This document shows, one piece after another, positions 111-12,092 of a stretch of 55,456 nt of DNA. The notes under the pieces are model-generated. The model was not told where the DNA came from. It saw only the letters and a program-made list of their open reading frames with translations, and did no database searches. This DNA is from Bacteroidota bacterium (lineage in GTDB: Bacteria > Bacteroidota > Bacteroidia > Palsa-948), in the NCBI GenBank assembly GCA_023251675.1, contig JAHEYJ010000003.1:1-55456 (forward strand), in the 5' to 3' direction. A program made the position numbers and the translations under genes. Numbering within the stretch: the first letter of the stretch is position 1; each line of letters starts with the position of its first letter.

Positions 111-335
111 ATGCTTACCATTACCCCACATGTGTTCAGGCATACTCTCGCAACACTGCTCCTTGAAAAGGATGTGGATATAAGATACATTCAATCTATC
201 CTTGGGCATAGTTCTATTATGACAACGCAAATTTATACTCATGTAAATCGCAAAAAACAAAGACAAATCCTTACGGCAAAGCATCCGAGAAAAGATTTTT
301 CCATGCCGGATTTAGTTATTCTGAATAAAGGATAA
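111..335 (+). pseudogene. Tyrosine recombinase (XerC/D-like), C-terminal remnant
   Basis: About 70 residues match the end of the catalytic domain of tyrosine recombinases: TPHVFRHTLATLLL carries the HxxRH box, LGHSSIMTTQIYTHV carries the second histidine and the nucleophilic tyrosine, and a basic tail ends in KHPRKDF. The N-terminal domain and the first catalytic arginine are missing because the gene begins directly after the IS3-type transposase end, so this is a decapitated gene. The ATG at 111 is only the first available Met. Its 3' end contributes part of the repeat at 323-345 that lies just upstream of the next gene. The remnant cannot be active by itself. Confidence 0.75.
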
Positions 336-4033: not shown

Positions 4034-4882
4034 TTATCTGTTACGATTAATGTTCTTTTCTTTAGACTTCCCTTTCATTTCACTTAGTTCTTTTCCTCTA
4101 TTTAACGACTTGTTTAATTCATCCAGTTTCTCCTCTGTAAATCCGATTCTTTTCAACCGGAATTTCTTGTTAGCAAAATACACTCCGGAAATTTTATCCC
4201 CTCGCTCATACACTTTCAGTTTACTTGCTTTCAGCAATTCAAAAAAACTTTCTCTGGAACCGGCTTGATTATAGCAGGAATTCAGAATCCCAATCAACTG
4301 CTCCTTCTGCGAAGCCCTCCCTGTCCGTAGTTTCATCTGGTATTCTTTGTCGGTAAGGAGGGCTTTGGCTTTTTTTGAGTGATCAACGACTGATTTTGAT
4401 AATTCCGGAAATGTTTTCTGTTGGAAATGTTGTATGTCTTTCTTCAGCGTTTGAAACTCCGCCTTAGTCATTCTGAGGGCTTTGCCGGTGTGGTATTCTA
4501 AGCCAGAGGCGCAGATGTGAATATGCCAATGATCTGTTGTATTCATATGGGGTATTGCAACATACATTCCTTTGGGATTTCTTAATTTCATGTATTCTCT
4601 CGCCATAGTTTGCATTTTTTCCAAAGAAATATTTTTTACATCATCTTTATGCCAGGAAAGAATCTCATGGGTGAGAGATATACTGTCTTTTCTTTTGATC
4701 TTCCGGTAATTCTCATTTTCTAAAAATTGTTTCACCCAGTTATCAATACTGTCGCCTCTGAGATTATGTGTAATGACAAAACTTTTATTCTGCTCATCAA
4801 ACAAACGATCCTTATCATTCATCATGTAATCAAGAAGCTGCCGGAAACTTGGTTTCTTTCGGGTTTTGATTTTAATGATCAT
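4034..4882 (-). CDS. MOB relaxase (mobilization nuclease)
   Basis: The product would nick the element's transfer origin and lead the strand into a recipient. From the start at 4882 it is 282 residues and opens MIIKIKTRKK, as Bacteroidota relaxases usually do, with a candidate nucleophile Tyr19 (LLDYMMND). The metal-binding triad is plain in TTDHWHIHICASG (H118, H120, H122). A longer frame from 4915 exists but would overlap the upstream gene by 44 bases, whereas the chosen start overlaps its stop by 11, typical of coupled genes. The protein is short for a relaxase, without a helicase or primase domain. Its C-terminus carries RGKELSEMKGKSKEKNINR, the tail shared with the integrase and four small proteins. 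The coupling-protein gene lies two genes upstream. Confidence 0.85.
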   Translation of the reverse strand: MIIKIKTRKKPSFRQLLDYMMNDKDRLFDEQNKSFVITHNLRGDSIDNWVKQFLENENYRKIKRKDSISLTHEILSWHKDDVKNISLEKMQTMAREYMKLRNPKGMYVAIPHMNTTDHWHIHICASGLEYHTGKALRMTKAEFQTLKKDIQHFQQKTFPELSKSVVDHSKKAKALLTDKEYQMKLRTGRASQKEQLIGILNSCYNQAGSRESFFELLKASKLKVYERGDKISGVYFANKKFRLKRIGFTEEKLDELNKSLNRGKELSEMKGKSKEKNINRNR

Positions 4883-5357
4883 GGGAAGATAAAGGAGGGT
4901 TTCTAAAAATCTCACCTAACTGGGCTTCCAGTTTCACTATTCTTTTTTCTATGGCTGCGTATTTGTCATCCCGATCAAAGAAATAACGCTCCTTTTTACT
5001 GACTATGTTTTGAATCTCATTGAGGCAATCGGAAAGAACCTGTTCCAAACGGGCAATTTGGTCTTTGTTGGGGACTATATAGGTACGATTGAGGTAAGAT
5101 AGCGCTGCCTGCCGTATAAACCCTGTAATGGGCATTTTGTGCGTTTTAGCCCCGTATTGTATCCTGCCGTATTCCCCTTTCTCCTGTGAGAAGTTGACTA
5201 TGAATTCCGGCCTGCGCGAGCGCTGACCACGCTTGTATTTGGTGAGATAATCCTTCCGATACGCTTTCTTGGCCGCTTTAATTTCAGCATCAGTGCCGTT
5301 AAGCACTCCCTGATCTTCAAGGTAATCCCACATTTTACTATTGCTTCTTTTACTCAT
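4872..5357 (-). CDS. MobC-like mobilization accessory protein
   Basis: The 161-residue product from the start at 5357 has a basic N-terminal half (KYKRGQRSRRPEF) followed by a short strand and helix pair (KMPITGFIRQAALSYL) that looks like the ribbon-helix-helix of MobC or MbeC-type relaxosome proteins, and then a C-terminal coiled coil. Such proteins bind near oriT and help the relaxase nick. The start was chosen because its ATG overlaps the coupling-protein stop (8 shared bases); an earlier Met at 5402 would extend further into that gene. Its own stop overlaps the relaxase start. Position between coupling protein and relaxase supports the call, although no direct oriT contact can be seen. 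Confidence 0.7.
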   Translation of the reverse strand: MSKRSNSKMWDYLEDQGVLNGTDAEIKAAKKAYRKDYLTKYKRGQRSRRPEFIVNFSQEKGEYGRIQYGAKTHKMPITGFIRQAALSYLNRTYIVPNKDQIARLEQVLSDCLNEIQNIVSKKERYFFDRDDKYAAIEKRIVKLEAQLGEIFRNPPLSSHDH

Positions 5358-6792
5358 GAACTTTTTCAATAGCTGGTAATGGAAGTACCGGCACAGAGTC
5401 AAAACAGGTTTGCGAAATAGTTCTAGGAGCAGGGATCTGGCTTAACCTGCTGTAGCGGAAGTTTTTGTAAAAAGGTTTGAGTTTGGCAAGAATCGGAGGG
5501 CGGTTTCCCGCTATGATAATGGCTTTATTCTCCTTGAGCATCCTGACCTCGGAAGCAGTCATAAGTTCCCGGATTATTTTTTTGTCGTCCTTATCCCTGT
5601 ACTCATAACGACCGAGTATTTGTTCCAGTTCTCTTGAAGTTTCCAAATTCTGTCCGGCAAAGAACATTTTTACATAACAGTTGCTTCGTATGGCTTCTGC
5701 CTCATGCTTGCCGTATTGATGGACGCACTGATCATATGTCTGGTACAGAATTAATATGCCAGCTCGGTGCTTGCGGACATTTGAAACGGCTAATTGCAAG
5801 GTCGGCATGTTCAAACTGGAAGCCTCGTCAATCAGAAAGAAAATATTCTGCTCTTCTTCTTTTGGGAATCTTGAAAGCACAAATGAGAAAAACTGCTCAA
5901 AGAAAATGCTTGTAAGCGTTGAGAAATATTTTTGGTCTGCGACAGAGTTTTGGATAAATAATACCGTTGGTTTATCCCTGAACTGCTGCATATCAATATT
6001 ATCGGTGGAAGTGATCTTTGCCACCGATTCATCGGAAAAAATCTGGAGTGCCGCCTTTACCGTGGAAATCGTGCCGCTAATGACCTTGTCATCTGCGCTT
6101 AAGAAGCTCTTGTATTCATCCCAAAGGTTTTCATCGGCGTATTGGCTGAATAGCTTATCCACCTGCTCAGGGCTTGCTCCCATTTTATTGAGAAGCATGC
6201 GCACGGTATATAAGTTCTGATATTGCGGTTCTTGCTTTTTTAAAATACTGATGAGCATTGACAAAAGCTGGATAGCCGAGTTGTTCCAGAACGGGTCCTT
6301 GGCATTCTTTCCCAGTGCGTTTGAAATTAACATGGATGACACTTTGTTAATCTCGCTTGAAGTGTTAGCGCGTAAAAGAGGATTGAATCCGGATGAAGCG
6401 TCCGGCTTTGAAAAATTTAATTGCTTGACTATAAATCCCTGCTCTTTCAGGTAGCCGCTTGATTTTAAATAATTCTCTCCGCTTGGATCATTCACAATTA
6501 CGCTGGAATTTTTTAGAGAATACAGCGTGGGCAGTAGTATAGTTGTGGTTTTTCCCAAACCAGTGGAGGCAATGACAAGGGCATTTTGATAGCTCAATTT
6601 CAGCGTAAGGTTCTTATCACCTGTCAAACAAAATCCCTTATTCCATGGACTAAGCAAAGACCAGGAACTTGAAAATTCTGCTGTATAGGATTTGTTTTTA
6701 GAATTGGTAAGGACTGATTCTAAAATCTCAACGCCCGCTCTGAGAGTTCCTTCTATTATTGAGATGATAATGTCAAAGAATTTTGTAATCAT
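5350..6792 (-). CDS. VirD4/TraG-type conjugative coupling ATPase
   Basis: Coupling proteins pass the relaxase-DNA complex to a type IV secretion channel. From the start at 6792 this is 480 residues. The Walker A motif is IASTGLGKTTT (about 74-84), NDPSGENYL follows as in TraG/TraD proteins, Walker B is IFFLIDEASSL (about 317-327), and a TraM-recognition-like C-terminal domain runs to the end. The usual N-terminal transmembrane pair is missing; only one amphipathic segment (MITKFFDIIISIIEG) precedes the ATPase. A longer frame from 6870 is possible but would run out of phase across the 42-codon gene just upstream, which could instead supply membrane attachment. No VirB4 or channel genes accompany it, so transfer would use a helper system. 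Confidence 0.85.
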   Translation of the reverse strand: MITKFFDIIISIIEGTLRAGVEILESVLTNSKNKSYTAEFSSSWSLLSPWNKGFCLTGDKNLTLKLSYQNALVIASTGLGKTTTILLPTLYSLKNSSVIVNDPSGENYLKSSGYLKEQGFIVKQLNFSKPDASSGFNPLLRANTSSEINKVSSMLISNALGKNAKDPFWNNSAIQLLSMLISILKKQEPQYQNLYTVRMLLNKMGASPEQVDKLFSQYADENLWDEYKSFLSADDKVISGTISTVKAALQIFSDESVAKITSTDNIDMQQFRDKPTVLFIQNSVADQKYFSTLTSIFFEQFFSFVLSRFPKEEEQNIFFLIDEASSLNMPTLQLAVSNVRKHRAGILILYQTYDQCVHQYGKHEAEAIRSNCYVKMFFAGQNLETSRELEQILGRYEYRDKDDKKIIRELMTASEVRMLKENKAIIIAGNRPPILAKLKPFYKNFRYSRLSQIPAPRTISQTCFDSVPVLPLPAIEKVHE

Positions 6793-6805
6793 GTTGATGG
6801 TTATT

Positions 6806-6934
6806 TTATTTAATAGTATTTTTAAGCAAGTCATTAATAAAATGAAGAATGCCTTCCAATATTCTGCCAACTCCCCAGAGAAGTATTAAGAACAGTTTGG
6901 CGATTGTTTTGACGAGTTTCTCTATTACTTCCAT
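6806..6934 (-). CDS. 42-residue hydrophobic protein before the coupling ATPase
   Basis: This short frame starts with ATG at 6934 and stops at 6806, filling the space between the upstream membrane protein and the coupling ATPase start at 6792. The product MEVIEKLVKTIAKLFLIL-LWGVGRILEGILHFINDLLKN is one hydrophobic or amphipathic helix with lysines at both ends. Its pattern (an Ile/Phe/Leu helix, then G-x-x-ILE) echoes the first 27 residues of the coupling protein. I infer a small membrane subunit, possibly a detached anchor for the ATPase. It could also be a chance open frame, although the 13-bp spacing to the next gene and the absence of another gene here favour a real one. Confidence 0.5.
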   Translation of the reverse strand: MEVIEKLVKTIAKLFLILLWGVGRILEGILHFINDLLKNTIK

Positions 6935-6949
6935 CGTTTTAGTATTTTT

Positions 6950-7660
6950 TTAATCGTTGATGTTTGCTGAAATGTGAACGGTCGCGCCTTTGTCCTCTAA
7001 AAGTTTCTTGTAGAATGCCGTGGCGATTGTAAATGCTTTGTCGCTGTAAGTATCAATCGGCTGGAAAATGAAATACACTTCTATGCCGCCAAGGTTCTGT
7101 AATGTTTCCAACTGATCAAACTGTTTTCTGATTGCTTCGGGATCAGTTTGAAGCAGCGCAAGTGTTTTTTTGTTGTAGAAAGATAAACTGCTCGTATTTT
7201 CCATCAGGTCTGAATAGATAAGCAGGTATTTCTTGTCGGCTTTGCTTTGGGCGAGCCGGTTAAGTTCATTTGCTATGGGAAGATAAATGGAAGAATTCCT
7301 TTTGCCGACAATGGCCTGTTCTGCCTGCGCGAGAATGCCGGCAACACTTTTCTGAAACTGTTTTACCTCATCCTCCCTCTGAAATTCATTGTTCGTCCAC
7401 TGGTTTGCAGTTTCAAGTTTTATTTCCTCCGCGGGATTGAAACTTACCTGCGTGATGTCGGAGAAATGAAACACCGCCCCGTTCCACTTGTTTTGAGCAA
7501 AGTCATACAGGCGCAGAACATCTGCCACGCTTGGCTGGGCAAGCTCTTGATCGGTAATATCCCGAAATACCGCTACTTCTGTAGTAGAGGTTTGGCTTGT
7601 CATCCAGGCAATTATGAAAATGGTTATGCTAAAGAGCAGAATCAGGATTGTTGTTTTCAT
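6950..7660 (-). CDS. Membrane-anchored vWA-like protein of the mobilization cluster
   Basis: A single N-terminal membrane segment (ILILLFSITIFIIAWM, residues 4-19) anchors a soluble domain of about 210 residues that would face the periplasm. The core has a von Willebrand A or Rossmann-like alternation of strands and helices, with YLLIYSDLMENTSS (about 143-156) in the place of a degenerate metal-site motif, then IEVYFIFQP. The canonical DxSxS is absent, so metal binding is doubtful. Its start overlaps the upstream gene by 32 bases, indicating translational coupling. It may form a membrane platform with the 368-residue neighbour; this is inference from position. Confidence 0.6.
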   Translation of the reverse strand: MKTTILILLFSITIFIIAWMTSQTSTTEVAVFRDITDQELAQPSVADVLRLYDFAQNKWNGAVFHFSDITQVSFNPAEEIKLETANQWTNNEFQREDEVKQFQKSVAGILAQAEQAIVGKRNSSIYLPIANELNRLAQSKADKKYLLIYSDLMENTSSLSFYNKKTLALLQTDPEAIRKQFDQLETLQNLGGIEVYFIFQPIDTYSDKAFTIATAFYKKLLEDKGATVHISANIND

Positions 7661-8735
7661 GCGTTTTGTATTTAGTGATGATTGATTGAAAGTTTATATT
7701 TGGAATGTCCAGTTCGGGTATTTCATCGTTAAAACAATCGGGGAAATCCTTTCTGCCCATGCGATTCGCTTTTTTGTATTCATCCACGGATTCCCTGTAC
7801 ATTATTTTTATCCGCTCAATGCAGTACTCTGCTTCCATCAAAGCGCCTATGTACTTACTCAGTGTTTCATTTTTTACTTTTTCATGCTCCTGCAGCTCAT
7901 TTTCTTTTTGTTGTTTTTCCCTTTCAAGCTTTTCAAGCAGCTTCAGCTTATGAAGGCTCTTCCTGTTCTGCTCAATTTCTTCCCTAGTCGGATGGTAGTA
8001 CCATGTTGCAAAGGGGGATATCAGGAAGAAAACTAAGTTAAAGACGGTAAAATAAAAGGGGTTTACCTCTACTCCAATGCGTTGCATAAACGTTGCGCGC
8101 AGTGATGCAATAACTGAAGAAACAATAGCCATGCAAGCAGCCGATACAATGACGACAAGCCATTTTTCAAGTTTTGTTTTTGCATCTTTATATTTCCTGC
8201 CTGCAAAATGCGCTCCCAAGCTTACGCACAGGGAAACCGAGGCTGAAATCATAAGGCAGGAGATCAGGTTATCCCCTGTTACCTGAAAGGCTTTTGTGTT
8301 CAGGTACACCTCGCCGATAAAAATTCCGAAGCCGATCCAAAGTGTTGTCCTGATGCGGGAAGCAATCTCGCTGGGGTTATAGAGAGAAAGTTCCTGTTTT
8401 AATATGCAGATATGCTTTTCTAAATTATTTATGACCTCCCCCAGTTTCTTGCTAACAGCATCTGCCAGATCCTTATACTTTCTGCCTTCGGCAAGTTGTG
8501 ATATCGGCTGGATGATCTGCAGCACTTTCAATACGAGGTTTTCGTACTTCGACTTGAAATGGATATGATGAACCAGTTTGTCTTTTTTTACTAAGGGCTG
8601 GGCTGGTTCTTTCATCCCATCGTGCTTGCCATCGTTATATGCCTCCGCTTTAACCCGGGCATGCTCTGTTTCAATCATGTTTTCAACGTCATGACTTGTT
8701 ATTGTTTTTTTAATTGGAATGATCGATGGTTTCAT
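7629..8735 (-). CDS. Multi-pass membrane protein with cytoplasmic coiled coils
   Basis: The 368-residue protein has a polar N-terminal region with helices (about 1-130), then four hydrophobic segments at about 130-150 (TTLWIGFGIFIGEVYL), 157-174, 190-212 (LVVIVSAACMAIVSSVIASL) and 226-245 (FYFTVFNLVFFLISPFATWYY), and a charged coiled coil from about 247 to 310 (REEIEQNRKSLHKLKLLEKL onward). No enzymatic motif is visible. It overlaps the next gene by 32 bases and belongs to the same minus-strand run as the coupling protein and relaxase. Function unknown; a scaffold for the mobilization complex is a reasonable guess. Confidence 0.6.
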   Translation of the reverse strand: MKPSIIPIKKTITSHDVENMIETEHARVKAEAYNDGKHDGMKEPAQPLVKKDKLVHHIHFKSKYENLVLKVLQIIQPISQLAEGRKYKDLADAVSKKLGEVINNLEKHICILKQELSLYNPSEIASRIRTTLWIGFGIFIGEVYLNTKAFQVTGDNLISCLMISASVSLCVSLGAHFAGRKYKDAKTKLEKWLVVIVSAACMAIVSSVIASLRATFMQRIGVEVNPFYFTVFNLVFFLISPFATWYYHPTREEIEQNRKSLHKLKLLEKLEREKQQKENELQEHEKVKNETLSKYIGALMEAEYCIERIKIMYRESVDEYKKANRMGRKDFPDCFNDEIPELDIPNINFQSIITKYKTHENNNPDSAL

Positions 8736-8747
8736 TTGATTTTGTTT

Positions 8748-9098
8748 TTAACGATTAATTGAAATTTCTTTTGCTTTCTGATTTTTTCTCTCGCGGATTT
8801 TATCGACATCTTCCGCTCTTCGTTCTCGTTTTGCGAGTTCTATGGCGTATTTTTCAAATCCCATCATTATTGTCTGCCATGAAGCCGTAGGAGGGCATAC
8901 CGGAAAATTATCGCAACTTGAAGTAAAATATGTATGATCTCCATTTCTGAATTCACGCTGGCCAACATATCCTAGCCACTTCTTCGATCCATCCGGCATG
9001 ACCTGCCTAACGGCACAATAGCCGCTGCCTGAAGGAAATGGAACGAATTCCAGCTTTATTTCCTGTGGTTCACTTTGCTCCTGTGATTTTCTTTTCAT
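8748..9098 (-). CDS. Small beta-domain protein with shared C-terminal tail (paralog A)
   Basis: The 116-residue product is homologous along its length to the 106-residue protein at 9546-9866. The common parts are a strand-rich N-terminal module with DGSKKWLGYVG, then SWQTIMMGFEKYAIEL against SWSDVENEFERYARRL, then the tail RRAEDVDKIRERKNQKAK. The last 23 residues hold the R-x-x-[DE]-[VIL]-x-x-[IVLM]-[RK] motif found in six proteins of the cluster. There is no signal peptide or membrane segment. The function is unknown. It lies 12 bp upstream of the membrane-protein gene and is probably co-transcribed. Confidence 0.6.
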   Translation of the reverse strand: MKRKSQEQSEPQEIKLEFVPFPSGSGYCAVRQVMPDGSKKWLGYVGQREFRNGDHTYFTSSCDNFPVCPPTASWQTIMMGFEKYAIELAKRERRAEDVDKIRERKNQKAKEISINR

Positions 9099-9134
9099 GC
9101 TCTCTTTGATTTTTATGGTTGCTGTTTGATTTAT

Positions 9135-9530
9135 TTATCGGAATAATTCCCGGCCTTTATTTTTAAAATATTTCTTTTGCCTGATATTTTTTACATCCTG
9201 TTCCCTGTCACTTTTCCCCGCAGCAAGGCCAACTACTGAATCCAAGACACCGCGGGAATGCTTCATGCTGTTTTCCATGAATACCTCCGCATCCTGTTGC
9301 ATCGAGTGGTTTTTTTTCTGAGGGCTTTTACTCTGTCTTATTTGATTTATTTCCTTTTCCCTTTTGGAAGAAAGATCCGACAGGTCTTTGGTTAAATTGA
9401 AAGTTATTTCCTGAAGCTTCTCTTTTACTGTCGGATTTTCTTTTCTTTCCCTGATTTGCTTTTGTATGGCGAGCTCCGGATTTTTTGGCTCATCCCATTT
9501 CTCTTTAGGTGTTTGGACTATTTTTCTCAT
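9135..9530 (-). CDS. Basic orphan protein with shared C-terminal tail (B)
   Basis: This 131-residue, strongly charged protein has long predicted helices (LQEITFNLTKDLSDLSSKRE) and no beta module, so it is unrelated in body to its neighbours. It nevertheless ends with REQDVKNIRQKKYFKNKG, matching the common tail starting 23 residues from the C-terminus. The presence of the tail on an unrelated body shows that the tail is modular. Many Lys and Gln residues suggest a possible DNA- or protein-binding role, but nothing specific is recognisable. Confidence 0.55.
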   Translation of the reverse strand: MRKIVQTPKEKWDEPKNPELAIQKQIRERKENPTVKEKLQEITFNLTKDLSDLSSKREKEINQIRQSKSPQKKNHSMQQDAEVFMENSMKHSRGVLDSVVGLAAGKSDREQDVKNIRQKKYFKNKGRELFR

Positions 9531-9545
9531 GACTGTAATTTTTAA

Positions 9546-9866
9546 TTAATGAGTGATTGCCAGTTTGAGTTCCTTGAGATTCCTTTGCTCTCGTATCGCT
9601 TCAATTTCTTCTGCCCTTTCTATTTGCTCCAGCCTTCTCGCGTACCGCTCAAATTCATTCTCTACATCCGACCATGATGTGGTTTTGAGAAATGCATCTT
9701 CTGAATCCCTATTGTGGGAGACATATTCCACACAACCATCCTCGCTGCACTCTTGTGAAACAGAGCCGATGATTTCTTTCTTCCCATTAGATAATAGTCT
9801 GCTCACGATAATGCAATCCACGGCACTGAGCGGTACGCTGAACCGGGCATAAGTTTTTGCTTCCAT
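9546..9866 (-). CDS. Small beta-domain protein with shared C-terminal tail (paralog C)
   Basis: The 106-residue product is a diverged paralog of the protein at 8748-9098: the N-terminal module has SNGKKEIIGSVSQE where that one has DGSKKWLGYVG, followed by SWSDVENEFERYA and the tail RAEEIEAIREQRNLKEL beginning 23 residues from the end. There are no catalytic motifs, no signal peptide and no known domain. It lies in the run of five small minus-strand genes between the integrase and the membrane proteins; the next gene upstream starts only 4 bp away. Confidence 0.6.
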   Translation of the reverse strand: MEAKTYARFSVPLSAVDCIIVSRLLSNGKKEIIGSVSQECSEDGCVEYVSHNRDSEDAFLKTTSWSDVENEFERYARRLEQIERAEEIEAIREQRNLKELKLAITH

Positions 9867-9870
9867 GTTT

Positions 9871-10272
9871 CTATCGTTCTATTTGTTGTCCTTTATCTTT
9901 TTTTGAACTGCGAACATTCTTGAGTTCTCCTACCCGTGATTCTCCAATACTTTCCTTTTCAACTTGGTTTTGAGGAGTTTCAGGTGCAAGAATTTTTTCA
10001 TTCTGGATGAATTGATTTTTTAGTTCGTAAAGTTTTTCAGTTGGTTCGAATATGGCTTTGCCTTCGCGATCAACTGCTGTGTAGATGTATTTGTTCGCAT
10101 CTTGATTGTAGGTTTTAAAAACCTTTCCCATGAAGACTTTTTTACCATCTACCCTGGTCGCTACAGTCATAAAATGCTGTCCTTGTTTAGCATAAGCGTA
10201 TTCTGTGAATACGATTCTGCTATAAGCGAAAGGAGATCGCTGTTTTTTGGTTTGATCTTGTTGTGTTTCCAT
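9871..10272 (-). CDS. Small beta-domain protein with shared C-terminal tail (D)
   Basis: The 133-residue product has a strand-rich N-terminal half (HFMTVATRVDGKKVFMGKVF, then YIYTAVDREGKAIF) whose DGKKxxxGxV pattern fits paralogs A and C, a helix (EKLYELKNQFIQNEKIL), a Gln/Glu-rich linker and the tail RVGELKNVRSSKKDKGQQIER starting 21 residues from the C-terminus. It stands immediately downstream of the integrase gene on the same strand (37-bp gap). Function unknown. A role in the mobilization complex is inferred only from the tail and neighbours. Confidence 0.6.
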   Translation of the reverse strand: METQQDQTKKQRSPFAYSRIVFTEYAYAKQGQHFMTVATRVDGKKVFMGKVFKTYNQDANKYIYTAVDREGKAIFEPTEKLYELKNQFIQNEKILAPETPQNQVEKESIGESRVGELKNVRSSKKDKGQQIER

Positions 10273-10309
10273 TGTGATTTGTTTTTATTGGTTGATTTAT
10301 AATTGATTG

Positions 10310-11695
10310 TTATTTCTCCAGTGATATTCCGTTGGATGATTTTCTCAGATCGTGTAATTCGTTCTGCCTTGATTCATTTTGCTCTGGGAATACGGAAAAA
10401 TTTTTGGCGGTCTGCCCGATTATTTTATCCGAAACATAATGGTCAGATAAAATTTTTGTACTTGAGTGCTGTGAAATAATCTGCGCGTTTGAAATTCCGA
10501 TGGCCGCAGATAATGAGCTTAGGTAGGTTTTACGGAGATTTTTATAAGTAGCCTCTTTTGAAAAGCTTAATTGCTTCCAGTAGTGGGTAAAGGAACGCGC
10601 CATAAATTTCCGCATGGTCTCCCTGTTCATCGTTTCGTCATCCGCCAGAATATATTTATCACTTCCCTTGAATTTCTCGTAGCCGAGTTCAATCAGTAAT
10701 TGTTTTAGATCTACTGTTATCGGCACGGATATTTTCTTGGGATTCTTCTCTAATCTCCCCTGCTGGCGTGATACTTTGAAGTCTGTTGCATTTACCGCTA
10801 ACAGTTCTCCCTGATTATTTAATACAATGTCTTTCCAGCGCATTTGAATAATTTCCTCGCTTCTGCGTCCGGTCATAAGCCCTAATTGTATTCCGTCTTT
10901 GACCCATGGGCGGTAAAAGTTTTTTATTTCTTTTCCTACTTTTTGAAGCCCAAGTTCAAGTATCTGCACTATGTCAAGCAAGGCATTGTATTCCTCTTTC
11001 GTTAAAACCTCTATGTTGTGCGTCTCAAGTTTTCTTACAACCCCTGCAAAGGGATTGATAGTCGCAAGCCCCTCTTGAATTAAGTGGTTATAGAGGGAAT
11101 ACATTCTCGTCATCCTGATGTTGTATGATCTCGCTCCCAGATTTTTTGACTCGATGTTCGCGTGGAATTTTCCGACCATAGGCTGGTCAACCTGCTTCGC
11201 CGTGAGTTCCTTTACGTTGTAGTGTTTCTTTAAACTCTTTATGAACTCGATAAATATTTTTTCTACCTCCCTGCAATATTTTTCTCCGCGCTTTCTGCGC
11301 TTGTGCTCCGGTGTGGATTCTCCTCCCCTGAGAAAATCCACGTACCGGCTCATGGCCTCAATGAGAAGCAGCGAACCCTCCTCTTTTTCCAGAGTGGGTA
11401 CTTGGAATTTTTCCCTGTGATGTTTGCCCTCTTTGACCTCTTGATAAAAAGCTGCTGATTGTGCCAATGCTTCTTTTAAAATTCTCGTGTCTAACTTCAT
11501 TGTCCTACGCTTGTCTGAATTTTTCTCGTATTCGACTGCCTTAAAAAATAAATCCGCTGGATGTAGACATTTTTGAAGCGGTTCTCCGGTTGCTTTGCAT
11601 GTATCAAATACAAGGGTGTTGCAGTACTTGCAGTAAACCTTCAAGCCGAATTCTCTTTTGTCTTTTGGTATGTACAGCGGTTTCATTTTTTGCAT
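10310..11695 (-). CDS. Tyrosine-type integrase with N-terminal Cys motif
   Basis: The 461-residue recombinase most likely integrates and excises the island. The N-terminus has a zinc-ribbon-like set (C22, C25, C33 and C43 or H45), a SAM-like core-binding region spans about 110-225, and the catalytic domain about 226-435. Catalytic residues visible are R278 (GLMTGRRSEEI), K308 or nearby lysines in FKVSR, R388 (YKNLRKTYLS), H410 (IISQHSS) and Y420 (SDHYVS). The first histidine of the HxxR box is replaced by lysine (K385), a variation seen in some active enzymes. The last 19 residues carry RQNELHDLRKSSNGISLEK, the tail shared with relaxase and small proteins, which is unusual for an integrase. 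The gene is 25 bp from the excisionase-like gene. Confidence 0.85.
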   Translation of the reverse strand: MQKMKPLYIPKDKREFGLKVYCKYCNTLVFDTCKATGEPLQKCLHPADLFFKAVEYEKNSDKRRTMKLDTRILKEALAQSAAFYQEVKEGKHHREKFQVPTLEKEEGSLLLIEAMSRYVDFLRGGESTPEHKRRKRGEKYCREVEKIFIEFIKSLKKHYNVKELTAKQVDQPMVGKFHANIESKNLGARSYNIRMTRMYSLYNHLIQEGLATINPFAGVVRKLETHNIEVLTKEEYNALLDIVQILELGLQKVGKEIKNFYRPWVKDGIQLGLMTGRRSEEIIQMRWKDIVLNNQGELLAVNATDFKVSRQQGRLEKNPKKISVPITVDLKQLLIELGYEKFKGSDKYILADDETMNRETMRKFMARSFTHYWKQLSFSKEATYKNLRKTYLSSLSAAIGISNAQIISQHSSTKILSDHYVSDKIIGQTAKNFSVFPEQNESRQNELHDLRKSSNGISLEK

Positions 11696-11720: not shown

Positions 11721-12092
11721 TTATTGTCCAGTAAGTTCCTTGTTGATTTCATTAAGGAAACGTTGCTGAGTTTTACTTTTCGGAATTGCCTTTTGTTTTA
11801 CAGTAGGTTTCTTCTTGTCTTGCTCAATTTCATCAAGGGCAGATTGAAGTTGAGCGAAGAGATTCATTTCGGATTTCAAAACTTCCATCCAGCGGTCTTG
11901 GTATTTTGCTTTGAGGTGGTTTATTCTTTCCTGTAGTTGAGCACGTTTAAACTGCGTTGCCAGCACATAGCGCGTTTTACCGGCTCCAAGAATTTCTATC
12001 TTATTCCTCTGTAGGTAATCAGATAAAGACCTGGAGTCCCGGTAAGGAAGCTCGGACTTTAAATCGCGGAAATATATTATCTCGATATTCAT
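11721..12092 (-). CDS. Putative excisionase-like DNA-binding protein
   Basis: The 123-residue product begins with a segment shaped like a helix-turn-helix of excisionase type: a helix (FRDLKSEL), a second helix (DSRSLSDYLQRNKI), then a wing-like strand pair with a glycine turn (EILGAGKTRYVLATQF). A long helical coiled coil follows (AQLQERINHLKAKYQDRW onward) and a basic tail. Its location just before the integrase gene on the same strand suggests a recombination directionality factor or transcription regulator. The assignment rests on fold pattern and context, not on a recognised family. Its ATG overlaps the stop of the upstream 52-codon gene (ATGA), so translation is likely coupled. Confidence 0.5.
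   Translation of the reverse strand: MNIEIIYFRDLKSELPYRDSRSLSDYLQRNKIEILGAGKTRYVLATQFKRAQLQERINHLKAKYQDRWMEVLKSEMNLFAQLQSALDEIEQDKKKPTVKQKAIPKSKTQQRFLNEINKELTGQ

Follow-up and report, generated by a model that had tools for sequence, protein, structure and literature searches.

A conserved C-terminal tag on the relaxase, integrase, ArdC and small orphan proteins of a Bacteroidota mobile-element family, a candidate transfer signal

We analyzed a window of 55,456 nucleotides (contig JAHEYJ010000003.1, positions 1 to 55,456) from a Bacteroidota bacterium. On its minus strand, at 3.7-12.1 kb, lies an element with the gene order p88, relaxase, MobC/NikA-like protein, VirD4-type ATPase, p236, p368, four orphans, integrase and a small protein. 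A relaxase, a coupling ATPase and an integrase thus stand in one cluster, as in a MOBP IME. Six of the proteins end in a common tail, hereafter the tag:

4034-4915, minus strand: MOBP relaxase (PF03432, E=6e-13)
4037-4099, minus strand: relaxase tag, core RGKELSEMK at 4073-4099, ending in NRNR; kept in relaxases to about 23% identity
4872-5402, minus strand: MobC/NikA-like mobilisation accessory, untagged; NikA-like only at E=0.11, position conserved in modules
5350-6870, minus strand: VirD4-type coupling ATPase, untagged (PF02534, E=8.5e-52); nearest NCBIfam family CD1115
6950-7660, minus strand: p236, membrane-anchored or lipoprotein VWA-fold protein, untagged; pLDDT 90.9, many VWA fold matches
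7629-8735, minus strand: p368, on our own reading a multi-pass membrane/coiled-coil protein, untagged; fused to p236 in L035
8748-9098, minus strand: s116, small beta-domain orphan
8751-8819, minus strand: s116 tag, core RAEDVDKIR at 8793-8819; neither motif arginine varies within the s116/s106 family
9135-9530, minus strand: s131, orphan
9138-9206, minus strand: s131 terminal tag, core REQDVKNIR at 9180-9206
9336-9362, minus strand: s131 internal tag copy, REKEINQIR
9546-9866, minus strand: s106, paralog of s116
9549-9617, minus strand: s106 tag, core RAEEIEAIR at 9591-9617
9871-10272, minus strand: s133, small beta-domain orphan; body modelled confidently by AlphaFold2, tail with low confidence
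9874-9936, minus strand: s133 tag, core RVGELKNVR at 9910-9936, ending in QQIER
10310-11695, minus strand: tyrosine recombinase/integrase (PF00589, PF13102)
10313-10369, minus strand: integrase tag, core RQNELHDLR at 10343-10369, ending in SLEK
11721-12092, minus strand: small protein upstream of the integrase, untagged; no family match

In the AlphaFold2 model of p236, an N-terminal helix precedes a confidently predicted VWA fold. A VWA protein is unusual for conjugation, and in tagged modules p236 always adjoins the coupling ATPase. Many loci have a recurrent ORF for a membrane peptide of 50-67 residues between these two genes (e.g., L049 7860-8015), which might represent a membrane anchor split off from the ATPase. 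Relatives encode a short protein at the same place upstream of the integrase, which makes the small protein found here a candidate excisionase or regulator. A search for attL/attR at the element boundaries returned short imperfect repeats only. At the edge of the window (111-335) lies the C-terminal part of another tyrosine recombinase (PF00589).

The cores begin 19 (integrase), 21 (relaxase and s133) or 23 (s116, s131 and s106) residues from the C-terminus. The original prediction, made from the letters of the window, had named these six motifs at 19-23 residues from the C-terminus, and all six lie where it had located them. When the last 40 residues of each of the six proteins were shuffled 20,000 times, no shuffle gave more than two of six proteins matching the motif. 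The DNA of the six tails showed no mutual similarity, which rules out a common 3′ end of DNA and points to conservation or convergence at the protein level. The internal core of s131 stands 75 residues before its C-terminus. The integrase has one internal match (RSEEIIQMR), probably due to chance, and the coupling ATPase also matches internally (ETSRELEQTLG), in a stretch that is conserved in this protein and that we judged unrelated to the tag.

It had also been claimed that three or four of the tagged bodies were unrelated. The window does hold four distinct bodies, namely the relaxase, the integrase, s131 and the s133/s116/s106 fold, and relatives add ArdC and more orphans; the claim needs tempering in that three of the four orphans appear paralogous, so that their shared tails are partly inherited. 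Specifically, s116 and s106 are paralogs with a common small beta-rich body, and s133 probably belongs with them according to our own reading of the aligned patterns. Natural fusions of s106-like and s133-like proteins occur (L052 5106-5999 and L179 53-955), each with one strong tag, at its end. Searches of the orphans against Pfam, NCBIfam and PADLOC gave no family that passed any cut-off, and the s133 model had no significant structural match among PDB or viral structures.

We investigated the distribution of the module in relatives drawn from about 300 sampled genomes and one contig scan, mostly draft MAGs. Relatives of the relaxase were found in 16 of 198 related genomes and on 21 named MAG contigs (Bacteroidetes, Bacteroidales, Chitinophagaceae, Lentimicrobiaceae and Flavobacteriales), with contigs recurring in both sets counted once. 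Alignment A1 proved too heterogeneous for scanning contigs; the seven-sequence alignment A2 worked for genomes, and a search of IMG/VR with the A2 profile gave no match. The sole plasmid match of the relaxase search was a relaxase at 29% identity. Gene order of the module was conserved across the relatives, and relaxases at 23-60% identity still ended in the tag. The relaxases of L054 and L063 have an extended linker (330-339 aa compared with about 282 aa) and carry the tag at the very end, indicating that it is held at the terminus. The tag is not a general trait of Bacteroidota MOBP relaxases, as nearly all of the more distant ones are untagged (L206 is borderline).

Several other features were noted among these loci. 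The distant Bacteroidota MOBP relaxases of L190-L215 were mostly untagged, many with polybasic KKKK/RKKK ends. The relaxase gene is split into two ORFs in L041 (9806-10656) and L140 (4161-4987), as is the ATPase gene in L052 (8105-9553), and these may be decaying copies or sequencing errors. Large serine recombinases replace the tyrosine integrase in the related relaxase/ATPase modules of L067 (6269-8023), L068 (6317-8020) and L216 (10647-12173).

A PSSM trained on the relaxase tails alone was run on all other ORFs, with score thresholds of our choosing. Matches of 8 bits or more were C-terminal in 39 cases, compared with 8.7 expected under uniform spread. Near the module, 31 of 697 ORFs on the element strand reached 10 bits or more, whereas the opposite strand yielded 1 of 770 (Fisher p=2e-9), and because sequences within a family are related, Fisher p-values such as this overstate independence; kinship was corrected, by tree count, for the integrases only. 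The shuffles and the strand control together rule out a chance origin of the tag. Carriers of the tag were integrases, ArdC, the s133 family, the s116/s106 family, s131 and further orphans (in L028, L039, L043 and L044), and MobC, the coupling ATPase, p236 and p368 were untagged, as was the small protein that lies upstream of the integrase. In the s116/s106 family, aligned independently of the PSSM, both tag arginines were among eight invariant columns.

Across its carriers, the tag has three parts: the core R-x-x-[ED]-[LI]-x-x-[ILVM]-R, placed some 22 residues before the C-terminus, a linker whose charge varies, and a terminal [IL]-x-[R/K]. Among 48 non-relaxase tags, R1 was present in 46 and R9 in 47, together with E/D4, L/I5 and I/L/V/M8, these core frequencies being partly produced by the score-based selection. 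The mean start of the core in these tags was 21.6-23.2 residues from the end, depending on the family. The terminal [ILMV]-x-[RK] lies outside the PSSM and was hence scored separately; it was found in 28 of the 48 tagged non-relaxases and in 82 of 1028 other (background) ORFs (p=2e-17). Counted from core to C-terminus, members had net charges between −9 and +7, with an acidic average for the s133 tails (mean −2.5). The basic stretch expected after the motif is therefore not a property of the tag, a simple polybasic signal is ruled out and the tail is not of the arginine-rich, net positive VirB/VirD4 type. The proposed likeness to basic C-terminal signals is accordingly weak, whereas ordinary Bacteroidota MOBP relaxases do have polybasic ends that are untagged.

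In two other respects, the tag behaves as type IV signals do: the relaxase shares it with further proteins of its element, and it sits at the C-terminus of its carriers, with extra internal copies in s131 and in seven long s133 proteins. These copies indicate that the motif is not strictly terminal, and it may also work inside a chain. With about 22 residues, and with a low-confidence tail behind the confident beta body in the s133 model, the tag does not form a folded C-terminal domain of the BID/XVIPCD type; the low confidence fits the expectation for a linear motif.

ArdC and the integrases tie the tag to the module rather than to the protein that bears it. ArdC homologs were assigned by PF08401 and PF18818 (E=1.4e-28 and 2.7e-36 in L028; E=7e-32 and 5e-37 in L031). 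Of 11 non-redundant ArdC proteins that adjoin the module, directly downstream of the relaxase, 10 were tagged (nine by a score of 6 or more and that of L050 by eye), and the one in L055 was untagged. Scores below 0 were obtained for all of the roughly 24 ArdC homologs located elsewhere, among them a second one in the L028 genome (p=8e-8). Similarly, the integrase family had 10 tagged members, all from module-owning genomes, and 13 of its 16 untagged members came from genomes without the module (p=1e-4); the integrase tree, with tails left out, required at least four changes of tag state. The tag is thus conserved and independent of the body, and it depends on the module, since these families lack it in other contexts. 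This strongly supports the modular-tag part of the original prediction and is the opposite of the outcome that had been named as counting against it. Some tagged integrases stood on retrieved stretches that contained neither a relaxase nor an ATPase (L137 2953-4380, L142 7450-8880, L138 9081-10538, L145 1412-3106 and L141 1384-2826). Such lone integrases were always in genomes with a module elsewhere, and they may be remnants, or else satellites relying on its receptor in trans.

Analogy and gene content suggest candidates for what reads the tag. Type IV systems with VirD4-type receptors recruit relaxases and effectors by C-terminal signals (PMC10025392), which makes the VirD4-type ATPase the obvious candidate partner. 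All clearly tagged modules that were seen in full had p236 and p368 (remote in L040). In L067 and L068, which belong to one MAG, the relaxase is untagged, the ATPase and MobC are kept, p236 and p368 are absent, and a serine recombinase adjoins; this suggests that the reader may be a larger receptor than the ATPase alone, namely the ATPase with p368/p236. An exception is L216, which lacks p236 and p368 and yet is weakly tagged.

Considering these patterns together, we find it reasonably probable that the tag is a bipartite linear docking signal on the substrates of a compact mobilisation machine, read by a VirD4-like receptor. The core would form a short amphipathic helix, followed by a flexible linker and the C-terminal [IL]-x-[R/K], and the machine would comprise the VirD4-type ATPase, MobC, the membrane protein p368 and the VWA protein p236. 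The tag of the relaxase would bring the nicked strand to the receptor, and the tags of the integrase, ArdC and the orphans would lead the same receptor to load these proteins into the recipient. There, recircularisation by the relaxase, re-integration by the integrase, and anti-restriction and other establishment functions of ArdC and the orphans would be needed at once. We infer the helix, the binding and the export from sequence patterns; export is the favored reading because the tagged set corresponds to what a recipient needs and the untagged set to what a donor needs. The original prediction that integrase and helpers travel with the relaxase-DNA complex thereby gains strong circumstantial support from the tagged ArdC and the untagged donor-side proteins, with export itself still a deduction. 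Weighing against this reading are the additional internal copies in s131 and seven long s133 proteins, the coupling ATPase that persists beside the untagged relaxases of L067 and L068, and the scarcity of VirB4 described next.

A bolder proposal, which we hold only tentatively, is that the tag is an undescribed code by which a machine lacking VirB4 (ATPase, p368 and p236) loads the relaxase, the integrase and an establishment kit, the lone integrases being satellites served in trans. A VirB4-type ATPase (TIGR03783 or PF19044) was absent from 14 of the 15 draft genomes with the module (G000, G068, G005, G088, G195, G004, G072, G174 and seven others), where data may be missing; since the base rate of VirB4 in relatives is 8-11%, this absence is not significantly low, and a transient helper is possible. 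Possibly, p368 and p236 build a mating channel of another kind.

The same tails could instead serve assembly in the donor: docked at its membrane on a common scaffold, either p368/p236 or MobC, the tagged proteins would couple excision, nicking and loading, and the helpers would not be exported. We regard this as rather unlikely. It would suit the loss of the tag in L067/L068, which coincides with missing p236/p368 while the ATPase and MobC remain, and the internal copies in s131 and long s133 proteins, which suit avidity; however, the former correlation comes from one MAG, and L216 is weakly tagged without either protein. Moreover, the untagged small protein upstream of the integrase is a candidate for a donor-side excision factor, and ArdC works on incoming DNA in the recipient (PMC7213743), so that it would gain little from docking in the donor.

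The ArdC protein of R388 exerts its function in the recipient. That it is transferred alongside the T-strand has been proposed from its likeness to TraC1 and is not excluded; expression in the recipient works, whereas expression in the donor does not rescue transfer (PMC7213743). Export of ArdC is thus no general rule. Maintenance proteins are delivered by conjugation systems, those of the F type conveying SSB, PsiB and Par proteins (PMC8406263).

A role apart from transfer, in which the tag governs how stable the element proteins are or where they localise by binding some other common partner (a host chaperone, a protease adaptor, or DNA/RNA), seems improbable to us. Short terminal motifs may act as degrons or adaptor sites, but ArdC and integrases of the same families are untagged without the module, donor-side proteins of the same operon are untagged and the relaxase is the most consistent carrier. 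Coincidence, or copying of one ancestral gene's 3′ end, is hardly credible and already refuted for the whole set, since the paralogy of three of the four small proteins touches only part of it, whereas the bodies (relaxase, integrase, ArdC and several orphans) are unrelated, the tails lack DNA similarity and the enrichment is strong.

If the docking signal is indeed an export signal, the protein cargo of this Bacteroidota mobile-element family would be readable from genomes. Two ideas would become testable, i.e., that ArdC is delivered with the DNA, as proposed for pSa/TraC1 and left unsettled by R388, and that the integrase is delivered as a protein and integrates before the genes of the element are expressed. 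Every tagged orphan would then be a candidate recipient-acting protein, which would offer a route to new establishment factors. As an export signal, the tag would also provide a small portable label for protein-delivery work in Bacteroidota.

The original prediction knew of no description of the tag, and our search of open-licence papers found none. By sequence, it is probably a new class of C-terminal transfer signal, with docking and export as its probable functions. Its closest counterparts are the signals of VirB/VirD4 systems (Agrobacterium VirF and VirE2; relaxases), which likewise place a short C-terminal signal on relaxase and helpers, use a VirD4-type receptor and depend on arginines. 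Those signals are arginine-rich and positively charged (PMC10025392), whereas here a patterned core, R-x-x-[ED]-[LI]-x-x-[ILVM]-R, is joined to a terminal [IL]-x-[R/K] by a linker that can be acidic. The BID module, which occurs in Bep effectors of Bartonella and in some conjugative relaxases, and the XVIPCD module of Xanthomonas resemble the tag in that one C-terminal module is found on different bodies. BID and XVIPCD are folded domains, and their descriptions set them apart from a motif of about 22 residues. They can also occur in several copies (PMC10025392). Another short C-terminal motif with glutamate belongs to a different secretion system, the glutamate-rich E-block of Legionella Dot/Icm effectors (PMC10025392). 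ArdC of the IncW plasmids R388/pSa and the TraC1 primase of RP4 have their counterpart in the ArdC homologs of these elements. To our knowledge, the E-block has no paired arginines at a fixed spacing. For R388, export of ArdC was not shown to be required; here, the module-adjacent ArdC ends in a relaxase-like tail. As a whole, the element resembles IMEs that have their own coupling protein, with an integrase, a relaxase, a VirD4-type ATPase and no recognised mating-pair genes. Compared with such IMEs, the Bacteroidota module adds two conserved membrane/VWA proteins and a common substrate tag.
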